A stretch of DNA of 64,000 nucleotides from Candidatus Gastranaerophilales bacterium (GTDB lineage: Bacteria; Cyanobacteriota; Vampirovibrionia; Gastranaerophilales; Gastranaerophilaceae): contig CALUVT010000003.1 of NCBI GenBank assembly GCA_944324345.1, forward strand, positions 1 to 64,000. The letters run 5' to 3'. Both the position numbers and the translations under genes were made by a program. Below, piece after piece: positions 1 through 52,977 of the stretch (the stretch's first letter is position 1; each line of letters begins with the position of its first letter). The notes under the pieces are model-generated. The model ran no database searches, was not told the DNA's origin, and was given only the letters and a program-made list of their open reading frames with translations.

Positions 1-41
1 CGAGCATACTTAGAATTTATTTTGTTTCCTTTCCCTTTTTA

Positions 42-67
42 CGACCTTTCAGGTCGACTTTTTTTTT
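42..67 (+). terminator. intrinsic terminator, plus strand
   Basis: A six-base stem (CGACCT/AGGTCG, loop TTC) is followed two bases later by nine T residues on the plus strand. It fits the end of a plus-strand transcript that starts before the window. The T run passes directly into the G9 tract. Confidence 0.55.
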
Positions 68-76
68 GGGGGGGGG
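68..76. repeat. G9 homopolymer tract
   Basis: Nine consecutive G follow nine T and end three bases before the stop codon of the minus-strand gene at 80-1945. G runs of this length are not expected by chance in such AT-rich DNA. Three C10 tracts occur elsewhere in the window (18169, 27584, 52088). Here the tract lies between convergent 3' ends, so no coding or promoter effect is evident. Confidence 0.8.
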
Positions 77-17282: not shown

Positions 17283-18104
17283 TTATTCTAACAGATACTT
17301 GGCAGAACAACCCGAACCGGCTATACCATAAACAGTATTCCCCGTTTGAGAACCAATATCTTTTGAACAACCTGTAATTCCATACTCTGGATTGTTTAAA
17401 TTAGGCATTTCTTCAAACAAAGTATCTGAACCAGCAGGAGCTAAATAATGCTTGTTCTTTTTTATATCAGAAGATACATGGATTACGAACACATCTCTCC
17501 CAAATTCATTCGGACCGTTCTGAAAATTATTTACATCAACAACTATCCAAGGCCCTGACCACAACTCTCCAAAGTATACTACTGCACCATCCTGTAATAG
17601 CAATGCTAATTTGTAATAATTATATGCGTACAACCCAAAAGGTGAATAATTATTAGGAATAGCTCCTGTTCTAACCCCAAGAGCCTTATATCGAGAATAA
17701 ATATTGGCAACACCCGACCATTTATACTTTCCTCGCTTATTATACCAATCAGAATTATAGTAGTCACAAACCTTATTTTTAGTGAGAGCAGTAGAAGAAA
17801 CTCCACAATAGTCAACTACTCTTAACTTCGATTTCATGGCACTGAAAAATTCATCAGTATAACCTTGATCATGACAATTACCATATTGACTGTGGTTACA
17901 TACAGTTACATCATCCGCTAAAACTTCATTGAATGCCGTATTTATTACAGAATACTCTTTCTTCCACTTGGCAATGTTTTGTTTGTTTTGTATTTCAGGG
18001 ATTACTGTAGTGAGCGTTAATACTGCTACAACCCCGATTATTCCTAAAGTTATTAATACTTCTGCTAGGGTAAAACCCTGTCTTTTATAATAGTAATGTT
18101 CCAT
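17283..18104 (-). CDS. type IV pilin-like / pseudopilin protein A
   Basis: A 273-residue class III signal protein. The prepilin site is KRQG-FTLAEVLITLGIIGVV: cleavage after Gly, N-terminal Phe, Glu at +5, one hydrophobic helix. Then comes a cysteine-containing globular domain with DYCGVSS, a conserved VDVNNFQNGPNEFGRDVF segment shared with the other two pilin-like genes in the window, and a C-terminal GCSKDIG...SGCSAKYLLE. It is presumably exported and assembled in a pilus or pseudopilus. The ATG is six bases after TATAAT, so the mRNA is leaderless. A G10 tract lies about 65 bases upstream. Confidence 0.85.
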   Translation of the reverse strand: MEHYYYKRQGFTLAEVLITLGIIGVVAVLTLTTVIPEIQNKQNIAKWKKEYSVINTAFNEVLADDVTVCNHSQYGNCHDQGYTDEFFSAMKSKLRVVDYCGVSSTALTKNKVCDYYNSDWYNKRGKYKWSGVANIYSRYKALGVRTGAIPNNYSPFGLYAYNYYKLALLLQDGAVVYFGELWSGPWIVVDVNNFQNGPNEFGRDVFVIHVSSDIKKNKHYLAPAGSDTLFEEMPNLNNPEYGITGCSKDIGSQTGNTVYGIAGSGCSAKYLLE

Positions 18105-18110
18105 ATCACT

Positions 18111-18138
18111 ATTATAACATTTGTTCTCTTTTTTACAA
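18111..18138 (-). promoter_or_regulatory. promoter of pilin-like gene A
   Basis: On the minus strand: TTGTAA (18138-18133), 16-base spacer, TATAAT (18116-18111), then AGTGAT and ATG. The stretch from the -10 to the ATG (TATAATAGTGATATG) is identical to that of pilin gene B at 27518. Confidence 0.7.
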
Positions 18139-18168
18139 GCCTTAAATCCAATGGTTAAGCTCTGAGTG

Positions 18169-18178
18169 CCCCCCCCCC
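18169..18178. repeat. C10 (minus strand G10) tract upstream of pilin gene A
   Basis: Ten consecutive C on the plus strand, preceded by GTG and followed by GAA. It ends 30 bp upstream of the -35 box of the pilin promoter. Pilin gene B has a tract of the same length at the same place with the same flanks. Candidate slipped-strand phase-variation site. Confidence 0.85.
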
Positions 18179-18281
18179 GAAGCTCCTTGACAATAAAATC
18201 TTATTCATAAATCCTCTCCTTATATCCTTAGTATAACTTATTTATCAATGTTTTGTTAAATTATTAACATAAAAATTTACG

Positions 18282-26651: not shown

Positions 26652-27518
26652 TTAATTTGAATACAACTTTGTTGCACTGCAACATGCACCTGAAAGAGAT
26701 GTTCCATTTAATAAGTCTCCAGAACCTAAAAAACCTTGAGCTCTTTCTGCACCAGCATCTTTTGAACACCGACAAACATTTCCATTTGCACTTTTATTAA
26801 ATGTCCCTTCTGCTCCTATTGGTTTTATCCAGTCATCATTTACCATAGCTGCAAATAGATCTTTACCTACGACATTTGGCCCTTTAGCAAATGAATTTAC
26901 GTCAACAACTATCATACCTGTTGAAAGTCCACCAAAATATATTGTTGTTCCATCCGGTTGTAGCACTGCCTTAAACATATAATCCCAACCAGTATACATT
27001 GTACCCGCATAATCCCGACATATTGCTGGCATTAGCTGTTTTCTAGAAGAAGCAGGAGAAGATGTCATTAAAGAATCATAAAGTCCATAAGCCGCAGAAC
27101 CACCACATAAACCGGTCCACGGTTGATAATAATTTGCACAATATTCACTTTCTCCATATTGGGGATACCCGCAACTGTCAATAACTTTGAGACGGGATAC
27201 AAAATTTTTGACAAATTCTGGGGATAAAGTTGCGTATTTAGAACTTAACATATATTCTCCAGGAGGTATACATTTTGTAGGAATGTCTAAATCACCTTCC
27301 TTACTCTTTACACATATTCCCCCTCCCATCTCTTCTTTTACCTCATAGTAGACATTGGCAATTTCACTATACTTTTTCTTCCACATAGCAGCATACTGTT
27401 TATCCATGTAACTATCTATAAATGCAGGTAAAACAAGAACTGCAACAACCCCAACTATTCCTAAAGTTATTAAAACTTCTGACAGTGTAAATCCAAATTT
27501 TGTGCAGTGATGTTTCAT
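26652..27518 (-). CDS. type IV pilin-like / pseudopilin protein B
   Basis: A 288-residue class III signal protein starting MKHHCTKFG-FTLSEVLITLGIVG, with cleavage after Gly and Glu at +5. The globular part has ICVKSKEGD, an SCGYP loop, VVDVNSFAKGPNVVGKDLF as in pilin A, and a C-terminal VCRCSKDAG...SGACCSATKLYSN. The open frame extends 53 codons further upstream through the G10 tract, but that part is promoter DNA. The ATG used here sits six bases after TATAAT (leaderless). Closest relative in the window is pilin A at 17283. Confidence 0.86.
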   Translation of the reverse strand: MKHHCTKFGFTLSEVLITLGIVGVVAVLVLPAFIDSYMDKQYAAMWKKKYSEIANVYYEVKEEMGGGICVKSKEGDLDIPTKCIPPGEYMLSSKYATLSPEFVKNFVSRLKVIDSCGYPQYGESEYCANYYQPWTGLCGGSAAYGLYDSLMTSSPASSRKQLMPAICRDYAGTMYTGWDYMFKAVLQPDGTTIYFGGLSTGMIVVDVNSFAKGPNVVGKDLFAAMVNDDWIKPIGAEGTFNKSANGNVCRCSKDAGAERAQGFLGSGDLLNGTSLSGACCSATKLYSN

Positions 27519-27524
27519 ATCACT

Positions 27525-27552
27525 ATTATACATTTTATTTTTAGTTTGACAA
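27525..27552 (-). promoter_or_regulatory. promoter of pilin-like gene B
   Basis: Minus strand: TTGTCA (27552-27547), 16-base spacer, TATAAT (27530-27525), then AGTGAT and ATG. Spacing and the sequence from the -10 to the ATG copy those of pilin A, consistent with a duplicated promoter cassette. Confidence 0.75.
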
Positions 27553-27583
27553 GTGTAAAACCCTTGAAGGAAGCTTAGAAGTG

Positions 27584-27593
27584 CCCCCCCCCC
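27584..27593. repeat. C10 (minus strand G10) tract upstream of pilin gene B
   Basis: Ten C between GTG and GAA, 31 bp upstream of the -35 box. The equivalent tract at pilin A is 30 bp upstream. AAGCT lies a few bases before both tracts and TGACAA a few bases after both, so the tract belongs to a larger conserved element. Confidence 0.85.
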
Positions 27594-27770
27594 GAAAACC
27601 TGACAAAATTCAACATTCTCATACTTCTTGCTCCTTAATTCATATAAAATACTTCTTACAGGACAATTATAAAACATTTTTCACAATTTTTCAATAAAAA
27701 AAATTTAATCAACATTTCCTTGAAAAAACAAGCTGACAAAATTCGAGCAACAATATATGAAAACTAACAT

Positions 27771-35568: not shown

Positions 35569-36177
35569 CTAGTAATCCATTATCCAACCATCACGTAGGA
35601 TCTGGGCAAAACAAACTCCATATTCACCTCCCATACAACCCTCTAAAGTAGCACTATCAGGGCTGACCGTTGATGTAACCGAACCATCACTATCAACGGA
35701 TAGAATAAACAGGTCTCTTCCATAAATATTTGGAGGTTGTTTCCCATTTATATCAACTGTGGCGATAAGGGAAGAATCAAGTTTTCTTAGACATAAAGTA
35801 CTTCCACTTGCCAAAACTGCACAGGCATCATTTGAAGTTAACGTATTAGGGAACTCTACACCACTTAATGTTGTATATTCATCAGCTAAACATTCAGTAA
35901 GATTTGAAGAAGTACAAGACTGAACGGTTTTAAAATATGTTGTTAAAAATGTTAGAGCACTTTGCCTCAAGGCTCTCACTTCACTCAAACGTTGTGTATT
36001 ATTTTCTGTCATTGCCGTTTCTGCAGCTTGGGACAATTCTGAATATACTTTTCTTAATTGCGTTACATAACTTTGACGTTGGTAATTTTCCATTAAATTA
36101 GGGACAGTCATTGCTGCAACAACCCCAATAATTCCAAGTGTAACCAAAACTTCTGCCAACGTAAATGCATTTTTCAT
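35569..36177 (-). CDS. type IV pilin-like / pseudopilin protein C
   Basis: A 202-residue class III signal protein with a very short leader, MKNA-FTLAEVLVTLGIIGVVAA. The residue before the cleavage site is Ala instead of the usual Gly; some prepilin peptidases accept it. Glu is at +5. The globular part has paired cysteines and DINGKQPPNIYGRDLF, the counterpart of the VDVNxFxxGPNxxGxDxF segment in pilins A and B. Unlike those it has a leader with GAGAGG-type Shine-Dalgarno and no G tract, so it is probably expressed constitutively. Confidence 0.85.
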   Translation of the reverse strand: MKNAFTLAEVLVTLGIIGVVAAMTVPNLMENYQRQSYVTQLRKVYSELSQAAETAMTENNTQRLSEVRALRQSALTFLTTYFKTVQSCTSSNLTECLADEYTTLSGVEFPNTLTSNDACAVLASGSTLCLRKLDSSLIATVDINGKQPPNIYGRDLFILSVDSDGSVTSTVSPDSATLEGCMGGEYGVCFAQILRDGWIMDY

Positions 36178-50872: not shown

Positions 50873-51862
50873 ATGAATTTAAAAAAATTTATTAAAAGTA
50901 AATTATCAAATTTTATCAACGAAAATCCATTAAAATATTTTTCAAGATTAAATACTCATAAAAAAATGGTTTTAAATTGCTATAAAGAATACATGGAAAC
51001 CAACGATTTAAACCAATTGTTCAGAGAACTTGCTAAAGATTTGGATGAACAAAGTATAGCAACCATAACAACCATTCTATCCAGAATTCAGGAATTTCTT
51101 TTGAAAAATAAAACCTTTTTACTAACAAAAGAAGAAGCCGAGAAAATATCTCATGCTAATTTCCTGAACAAAAACATTGTCAAACTGGGAGAAAACATAT
51201 ACACAAACGGAAAGTATTATCTTCCTGTTAATAATTTTTTAGGCACTATTTTTATTGATAATTATTTCATTGAAGAGATAGAACATCCGGAAAAATTAAA
51301 AGACAAAGCAATAATTGATGTTGGGGCTTATATTGGAGATTCTGCATTGTTGTTATCTAAGCTTACAAATAACAATGTATATGGTTTTGAACCTGTATCA
51401 AGCAATTACGAAAAAATGATAAATACAATTAAGCTGAATAATTGTACTAATATTATTCCTGTAAAACAAGGGCTTGGAAGTGAAGAAAAGACTACAAAAA
51501 TAAATATTTACGGAAAAACCGGAACAACCTGCTCTGTAATTAAGCACCAAAATAAGGCTAATTGCATTCAAGAAGAAATAAGAACAACAACACTTGACAA
51601 ATATGTAAATGAAAACAATTTAAACATTGGTTTGATTAAAGTTGACATTGAAGGTATGGAAAAAGATTTTCTGAAAGGTGCAGAAAATACTATAAAAACT
51701 CAAAAACCGGTATTGTTACTCAGCGTATATCATACTGCTGAAGACTTTTTCACTATTAAACCTTTAATCGACAGTTGGAACTTAGGTTATAAATTTAAAA
51801 TAAGAAAAGCAACAAAAGAATCTATTCTTGATGATACAATTTTAATTGCAGAGTGCAGATAG
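50873..51862 (+). CDS. FkbM-family methyltransferase
   Basis: A 329-residue protein. The N-terminal 130 residues are helical and unassigned. The SAM-binding core begins IIDVGAYIGDSALLLSKL near 144, then NVYGFEPVSSNYEKM, TTLDKYVNENNLNIGLIKVDIEGMEKDFLKGAENTI, all typical of FkbM. It likely O-methylates a sugar of the polymer. Starts one base after the fusion gene stop. Confidence 0.88.
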   Translation: MNLKKFIKSKLSNFINENPLKYFSRLNTHKKMVLNCYKEYMETNDLNQLFRELAKDLDEQSIATITTILSRIQEFLLKNKTFLLTKEEAEKISHANFLNKNIVKLGENIYTNGKYYLPVNNFLGTIFIDNYFIEEIEHPEKLKDKAIIDVGAYIGDSALLLSKLTNNNVYGFEPVSSNYEKMINTIKLNNCTNIIPVKQGLGSEEKTTKINIYGKTGTTCSVIKHQNKANCIQEEIRTTTLDKYVNENNLNIGLIKVDIEGMEKDFLKGAENTIKTQKPVLLLSVYHTAEDFFTIKPLIDSWNLGYKFKIRKATKESILDDTILIAECR

Positions 51863-51876
51863 TAGGAGATAAAATT

Positions 51877-52977
51877 TTGGAAAAATTTAAAAACATAGAG
51901 TTTTTGAGAGTTGTTGGATGTATCGCAATTGTTTTACTTCACATTTTTAATGGGGGAGGTTTGTATGAGAGTTTTGCCTCAGCTTGGGATTTTAACTATG
52001 GCAAGATACATTGGATCACATCAAATGGGGCAAAGGCCGTTGATCTGTTTTTTATTTTATCAGGTCTGTTTTTTATGCTTAAAATCGCCCCCCCCCCGAA
52101 AATGCAATCTCTATATAGTTTTGTTAAAAAGAAAGTTATAAGACTTTGGCCGGTACTTATTTGGACTATATTTTTATATTTTTTAGTATCTCTTACAGGT
52201 GCTATAGAATTTCAGACCTTTAGCAATATTATTACTTTTTTTGGATTAAGCGGTAATGGAATCGGGTTGGAACGAGGTAATGTAGGGGCTTTCTGGTATG
52301 TTTCTGCAATGCTTTGGGTACTGGGACTATTTTTCTACTTGTTGAAAAATTTTGATAAGAAAATCGTAAACCTTATAATTGCACTACTTGTTTACTTTTC
52401 TTATGTATTTTTGCTGCATGCTAGAGATGGCTCTATTGGGAATCATATACAAACATTTTACAATGTTGTCAATGTAGGAATGCTAAGGGCATTTGGAGGA
52501 ATTGGTATTGGATATTTTATTGCTGAATGGTATAAAAATAACAGAGAAAATATACAAAATCTAACATTATCTTTTAGTAATAAGGTAGCTGTTTCTATTT
52601 TAGAATTTGGGTGTGTATTTTTCATAATTAAGAATCTCATGTTAAACAAATTATATTTTCACAACCAAATAATTTTTATAATAATATTTGCAATTACAAT
52701 AATTTTATTCCTTTTAAACAAAGGTTATATATCCGAATTCTTAAACAATGATTTTAACGTTTTTCTTGCGAAATATACTTATTCCATATATTTAACACAT
52801 TCTGTTGTTCGTGAGCTATTTAAAGGAACCTTTTGGAAATACCACCCGGAATTTGTATTTATGCACCCGTTATTGAATATTGTTATAACATTATTAACGG
52901 TATTAATACTCGGAATCATTACATATCACTTTGTTGAAAAGCCTGCAAGTAAATATTTACAAAAGAAATACTTATAG
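51877..52977 (+). CDS. membrane acyltransferase (family 3) with in-frame C10 tract
   Basis: A 366-residue integral membrane acyltransferase with about ten helices: LRVVGCIAIVLLH and KAVDLFFILSGLFFMLK at the start, the family signature R/H pair in the first helix, and FVEKPASKYL at the end. It decorates surface glycans with acyl groups. A TTG start at 51877 is preceded by AGGAG at eight bases. Codons 71-74 (APPP) are encoded by a run of ten C. Gain or loss of one C gives a stop within about 20 codons, so the gene is ON only in this length class. Confidence 0.87.
   Translation: MEKFKNIEFLRVVGCIAIVLLHIFNGGGLYESFASAWDFNYGKIHWITSNGAKAVDLFFILSGLFFMLKIAPPPKMQSLYSFVKKKVIRLWPVLIWTIFLYFLVSLTGAIEFQTFSNIITFFGLSGNGIGLERGNVGAFWYVSAMLWVLGLFFYLLKNFDKKIVNLIIALLVYFSYVFLLHARDGSIGNHIQTFYNVVNVGMLRAFGGIGIGYFIAEWYKNNRENIQNLTLSFSNKVAVSILEFGCVFFIIKNLMLNKLYFHNQIIFIIIFAITIILFLLNKGYISEFLNNDFNVFLAKYTYSIYLTHSVVRELFKGTFWKYHPEFVFMHPLLNIVITLLTVLILGIITYHFVEKPASKYLQKKYL
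52088..52097. repeat. C10 tract inside the acyltransferase reading frame
   Basis: Ten C, preceded by G and followed by GAA, as at the two pilin promoters. The tract falls between the second and third membrane helices. With eleven C the frame stops after GAA AAT GCA ATC TCT ATA TAG; with nine it stops after about 15 more codons. Typical form of a translational phase-variation switch. Confidence 0.9.

Follow-up and report, generated by a model that had tools for sequence, protein, structure and literature searches.

The best explanation for the single-base runs in the pilin genes of a Candidatus Gastranaerophilales genome is frame-based phase variation that covers most of the pilin repertoire and leaves each gene OFF by default, a reading to which we assign a probability of roughly 0.77. 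The run lies in the translated frame, out-of-frame lengths are in excess, a stop codon is planted in the frame of the usual length, relatives differ by one base, and run orientation obeys a strand rule. We infer a switch driven by slippage, pili built from the long product alone, and a benefit from varying the surface in the face of host, phage or competitors. Frame-based phase variation is itself a known kind of switching; the scale, the default-OFF design and the strand rule are what is new here, and our literature search found no report of phase variation in Gastranaerophilales.

In the proposed mechanism, each pilin gene would be translated from a Shine-Dalgarno (SD) sequence and ATG through ~6-30 codons into a G (or C) run, followed by the rest of the leader and the FTLAEV stem, so that the prepilin leader would be reached only at one run length modulo three. 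With the usual run of the lineage one base away from that length and a stop straight after it, each gene would be OFF by default; a one-base slip in DNA replication would turn it ON, and a further slip would turn it OFF again. An in-frame share of ~9% implies that each cell would display a small, changing subset of pilins (~3-5 of 46 here), and within the genus the longer ON run (G11) would slip back more easily, making the ON state brief.

Pilin A and pilin B carry the run in the coding leader

The window, the whole 64,000-nt stretch of DNA that was analysed, contained G runs of at least eight far above chance (11 eight-mer matches vs 0.29 expected). An earlier note on this DNA had described a cassette of G10, a TTGT[A/C]A box and TATAAT-AGTGAT-ATG shared by two minus-strand genes, pilin A and pilin B, and its letters and coordinates proved correct at both loci. 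In pilin A, the internal ATG is at 18104, TATAAT at 18116-18111 and TTGTAA at 18138-18133, with a 16-base spacer and the G10 tract 30 bases above the TTGTAA box; in pilin B, the internal ATG is at 27518, TATAAT at 27530-27525 and TTGTCA at 27552-27547, with the tract 31 bases above the box. The further claim that the upstream element had not diverged held only in part, as a 165-base upstream alignment of the two loci showed many mismatches and several gaps.

Both tracts lie ~10 codons 3′ of an upstream SD and ATG, inside the coding leader (Table 1). At G10, the frame from this ATG reaches a stop after 15-17 codons, and at G11 (or with two fewer bases, G8) it is open to FTLAEV/FTLSEV; the distance from the upstream to the internal ATG is 104 bases in each gene. 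Another ATG of pilin B, at 27677, shares the pilin frame at G10; lacking an SD and overlapping a TATAAT, it is improbable as a start. A G9 run at window positions 68-76 was rejected as a pilin tract, as its sequence is common to the ends of contigs 1 and 3: a 67-base sequence ending in T9G9 occurs at the start of contig 3 (window 1-76) and at the end of contig 1 (locus L034, 1472), where it represents an assembly-breaking repeat.

Table 1. Coordinates of the run-bearing loci and of a tract-free pilin in the window
Feature	Position	Strand	Basis
Pilin A, SD AAGGAG (18221-18216) and ATG (18208-18206), likely true start	18206..18221	-	Sequence; SD and ATG at the same place in 190/193 family loci
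Pilin A, G10 tract within the coding leader	18169..18178	-	Sequence, frame census
Pilin A, predicted OFF product: short frame at G10, MNKILLSRSFGGGALRA then stop	18155..18208	-	Translation, frame census
Pilin A, remaining leader and pilin, TQSLTIGFKACKKENKCYNSDMEHYYYKRQG/FTLAEV..., needs tract length 11 or 8	17283..18168	-	Pfam N_methyl 3.3e-6
Pilin A, internal promoter/operator-like module TTGTAA-16-TATAATAGTGAT-N7-ATtAC, in leader	18093..18138	-	Sequence; promoter activity putative
Pilin B, SD AAGGAG (27636-27631) and ATG (27622-27620), likely true start	27620..27636	-	Sequence
Pilin B, G10 tract within the coding leader	27584..27593	-	Sequence, frame census
Pilin B, predicted OFF product: short frame at G10, MRMLNFVRFSGGGHF then stop	27575..27622	-	Translation
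Pilin B, remaining leader and pilin, needs tract length 11 or 8	26652..27583	-	N_methyl 2.3e-4 in genome search
Pilin B, internal promoter/operator-like module TTGTCA-16-TATAATAGTGAT-ATGAAAC-ATCAC	27507..27552	-	Sequence
Pilin without tract, short ordinary leader MKNA/FTLAEV, for comparison	35569..36177	-	Sequence, Pfam
Acyltransferase gene with inverted element (C10 in coding strand), in frame at C10	52088..52097	+	ORF 51853-52977 = Acyl_transf_3, 1.1e-29

Frame census of the pilin genes

A genome-wide search yielded ~50 runs from 103 nine-G matches; nearly all are exactly ten long, and only a few depart from the order SD, ATG, 6-30 codons, run and then pilin in another frame. This arrangement was found at 46 pilin genes out of 68 N_methyl loci (L297 included), of which 43 need length 11 or 8 to be in frame. 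As assembled, the frame is intact in five, comprising three with G11, one with C10 and one with G10, the last encoding a 512-residue product. An unfiltered census of this genome, which kept loci without a recognised pilin motif or stopped before it, showed the pilin frame open through the run at all loci; the other two frames were stopped in 44/45 and 45/45 loci.

The start upstream of the run is supported by the presence of SD and ATG in 190 of 193 loci across the family, compared with an SD before the internal ATG in 0 of 35 cases in this genome, where a third of the loci lack the internal ATG altogether, as do most loci elsewhere. At some loci, the run sits within an ordinary prepilin leader of 18-22 residues, which makes any other start improbable there, and in the tract gene L049 no further start codon precedes the stem. 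Many leaders span 40-60 residues, long for a type IV prepilin. Counts by codon position in the leaders showed no third-position excess; the leader does not appear to be conserved as protein, and the test is either uninformative or argues against protein-level constraint. At four loci (L090, L100, L107 and L182), VIPNLFRD-type repeats lie in frame between the run and the rest of the gene, giving very long leaders. At another locus (L306, G000:C1:380678), the inverted run of a pilin leader has decayed (CCCCCTCCCGCG) and is out of frame; substitutions seem to have frozen this switch.

Pilin identity was judged by the N-terminal methylation motif with G or A before F, and a prepilin peptidase is encoded in the same genome (PF06750 match at C1:660727); with both in place, the tract genes are predicted to be type IV pilins or pseudopilins.

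Run lengths in other members of the family

Of 39 relatives searched, 17 carried the element TC-G10-C..AGCTT; they all belong to the same genus, their records being mostly named Candidatus Gastranaerophilales, and pilin-leader runs with different flanks also occur in other genera of the family. Among 234 loci from six genome sets of the family, 21 were in frame against 78 (one third) expected (P=1.6e-18), the lengths being assembly consensus values and part of the 'other' set having been fetched by a pattern that allowed lengths 9 to 12 only. In genome G007, 40 of 45 pilin runs have length 10 and need +1; G053, which belongs to another genus, has 18 such runs, 13 of them G10 with a +1 requirement and four in frame. 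In G040 the run is usually 13 and length 12 would be in frame, and in G076 the two values are 11 and 10, as counted over loci with a recognised pilin motif and no stop before it. What is constant across the family, as judged from these assemblies, is thus an in-frame length one base off the usual run and not the number ten.

Comparison of tract lengths among relatives revealed a one-base difference in 3 of 7 near-identical pairs at ≥93% identity, a small sample: G9 vs G10 in L128 and L137 (98% identity over 305 bases), G10 (out of frame) vs G11 (in frame) in L142 and L152, and G11 vs G10 in L164 and L189. These pairs, which stand between genomes or paralogues and not within a population, are the most direct sign of length change here. 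The contig of L128 (CALWEY010000024.1) is labelled Clostridia and carries two run-bearing pilins of Gastranaerophilales type; it is probably mis-binned. G11-G15 runs in G090, G066 and G034 were set aside as pilin switches, as they lie outside pilin leaders; those at L270-L289 of G090 and G066 belong to a different dispersed repeat (cccgcatgaatagtgcatttgc-G12), often at contig ends.

A stop codon follows the run at its usual length

The out-of-frame state is marked by more than run length. In the length-10 frame, a stop occurs within five codons in 83 of 87 distinct G-type flanks and 24 of 33 C-type flanks, compared with 12/87 and 8/33 in the length-9 frame and a background rate of 31%. Glycan-type genes with interior runs behave differently, 7 of 10 being in frame at the usual length (Fisher 1.2e-5 vs pilins), and thus the default-OFF offset belongs to the pilin class and not to the run. 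It looks as if run length is a property of the lineage, with the frame offset selected for each gene class. The acyltransferase gene of the window, one of these glycan-type genes, is from its Pfam match and in-frame C10 probably a phase-variable glycan acyltransferase.

Homopolymers are error-prone and all run lengths were read from assemblies, so that true runs might be in frame and their consensus lengths one base off. Such an artefact is the least probable of all the explanations weighed here: the same runs are assembled in frame in glycan-type genes, the offset changes sign (+1 or -1) from lineage to lineage, and a stop planted specifically in the length-10 frame is a matter of sequence, not of run length. 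It is also scarcely credible that the short upstream frame, reading Gly-Gly-Gly or Pro-Pro-Pro and then a stop, serves to attenuate translation from a pilin start further downstream. A frame of 12-23 codons ending just past the run is indeed near universal at the usual length; however, an attenuator does not need the pilin frame to be open all through the run, the downstream start is missing at many loci, and in-frame alleles exist.

An internal promoter-like module in the leader

Many leaders contain a module of the form TTGnnA-16/17-TGnTATAAT with an inverted repeat GTGAT-N7-ATCAC. Read in the pilin frame, TATAATAGTGATATG encodes Tyr-Asn-Ser-Asp-Met, and TATAAT is in that frame in all 22 loci of this genome that have it. 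The module is conserved as DNA, because its Ser codon is nearly always AGT and its His-His nearly always CATCAC, with the seven middle bases variable. Among 39 module matches in this genome, 37 fall in tract pilins, and the module was not found in the tract-free pilins that were looked at. It is nevertheless absent from 12 of 45 loci here, 25 of 45 in G007 and 15 of 18 in G053. The module is real but an optional part of tract-pilin leaders, and it may act as an internal promoter that includes an operator, perhaps a pilin promoter of older date that the leader has come to enclose.

The earlier note had placed the switch here, with a run at a fixed distance that would determine how far an upstream contact stands from the internal TTGTNA/TATAAT promoter, and with translation from the internal ATG. 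Conservation of the module at the DNA level, its restriction to tract pilins and the location of the run 49-61 bases above the -10 would suit promoter-type phase variation. The 49-61-base spacing, however, keeps no helical phase, while the reading frame is always kept; the module is often absent; the internal ATG has no SD and is often missing; and the upstream SD and ATG, together with the planted stop, are left unexplained. The fixed distance was accordingly not borne out, and a promoter-spacing mechanism is very unlikely for a tract that lies in a translated leader behind its own start. Frame-based switching does not depend on the module, nor can the module stand in for it when many tract pilins have none, but the module's DNA-level conservation falls outside the frame-switch model and counts against it. 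The broader idea of the note, that copies of one cassette would let several pilins phase-vary, is supported as a prediction from sequence.

Run orientation follows the replication arm

In five pilins of this genome, in L297 and in the acyltransferase gene, the element is inverted, giving C10 (Pro-Pro-Pro) in the mRNA. They make up the tract genes encoded on the minority strand of their arm: G lies on one strand per arm in 47 of 47 copies checked in this genome, where the runs served to define the arms, with two switch points, and independent support comes from GC skew. Run polarity changes from minus to plus on contig 1 and from plus to minus on contig 2, and is minus on contigs 3 and 4; the direction of a run goes with that of its gene without exception (Fisher 1.6e-8 in this genome and 1e-10 in G007). 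Single polarity switches of the same kind occur in G007, and every other listed contig with several matches has one sign only. Sampled at 15 kb, GC skew agrees with the strand rule at 11 of 16 places, with misses mostly near the switch points. As an origin marker, dnaA (C1:658k) falls inside one arm, and GC skew and run polarity were used instead. The G strand is probably the leading strand. Run-free pilins show no such bias, 14 of 23 being on the leading strand.

Strand-dependent slippage would be the simplest idea for this rule. A stronger version is a tentative proposal that we consider unlikely: a dedicated process, linked to the direction of the fork, would keep almost all copies at a single length and in a single orientation (G on the positive-GC-skew strand), hence the inverted copies in genes on the opposite strand, and would leave pilins OFF with a set chance of switching ON. 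Loss of mismatch repair was rejected as a cause of slippage, as this genome has both a complete MutS and a second, MutS-like gene.

The strand rule also bears on programmed slippage, in which RNA polymerase or the ribosome would slip on a run of fixed length to make a constant small fraction of full-length pilin. The near-constant G10, the constant +1 need in the genus and the stop right after the run resemble frameshift sites. Programmed frameshifting, however, keeps site length and direction fixed among homologues, whereas the direction required here varies by lineage (+1 from 10; -1 from 13 and 11). Furthermore, G and C runs are used alike, close relatives differ in length, roughly one locus in eleven (the 21 above) is in frame, and the strand rule tracks replication, not transcription. 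We regard programmed slippage as clearly improbable. Frame-based phase variation, in contrast, is expected to place the run inside a reading frame that a change of length alters, to leave run lengths different among close relatives and to involve surface genes, all of which were found; the tract genes of the surface class comprise N_methyl pilins, the acyltransferase and glycosyltransferase-like genes.

Discussion

In Neisseria opa genes, about a dozen in number, CTCTT repeats lie in the signal-peptide coding region. The pilin genes resemble them in having the repeat in a coding leader, in forming a multi-copy surface family and in that each copy would switch alone; they differ in using single-base runs instead of pentamers, in their number (46 pilin genes) and in being OFF by default. 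Bordetella fim and Neisseria porA carry homopolymer runs that set promoter spacing. A homopolymer near -35/-10 boxes is likewise found here; unlike in those systems, it lies in translated sequence and the spacing is not kept. The vlhA genes of Mycoplasma gallisepticum share with the present family many paralogues, a need for an exact repeat number and conserved flanks (PMC6258824), but their (GAA)12 repeat is in the promoter and acts on transcription (PMC6258824), whereas the pilin run is in the reading frame.

Closest in kind is the poly-G/C phasome of Campylobacter, with ~9-11 G/C runs in the frames of surface genes and one-base switching (PMC6321876, PMC4965091). It comprises mixed gene classes, and its ON share is near neutral drift in a large set of draft genomes (PMC6321876, PMC4965091). 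Here, in contrast, there is one family of ~45 members with ~9% in frame, a planted stop and a strand tied to the replication arm. Run length in Campylobacter is 53% G9 and 26% G10 (PMC6321876); in the pilin family, ~85-91% of runs have one value within the genus. Turnover of run length may be slow, because run length is tighter than in Campylobacter and a full MutS is present.

If the frame-based reading is true, gene callers will annotate wrong start codons for these pilins or label out-of-frame copies as pseudogenes. In size the system would rank among the largest phase-variation sets formed by one gene family, and it would stand apart from the classic pathogens with numbers that can be tested; the link between run strand and replication arm, inverted copies included, makes strand-dependent slippage directly testable. 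Pilin display would depend on one-base switches that act independently and default to OFF, and an uncultured gut lineage of the cyanobacterial phylum would show only a small random subset of its ~45 pilins.
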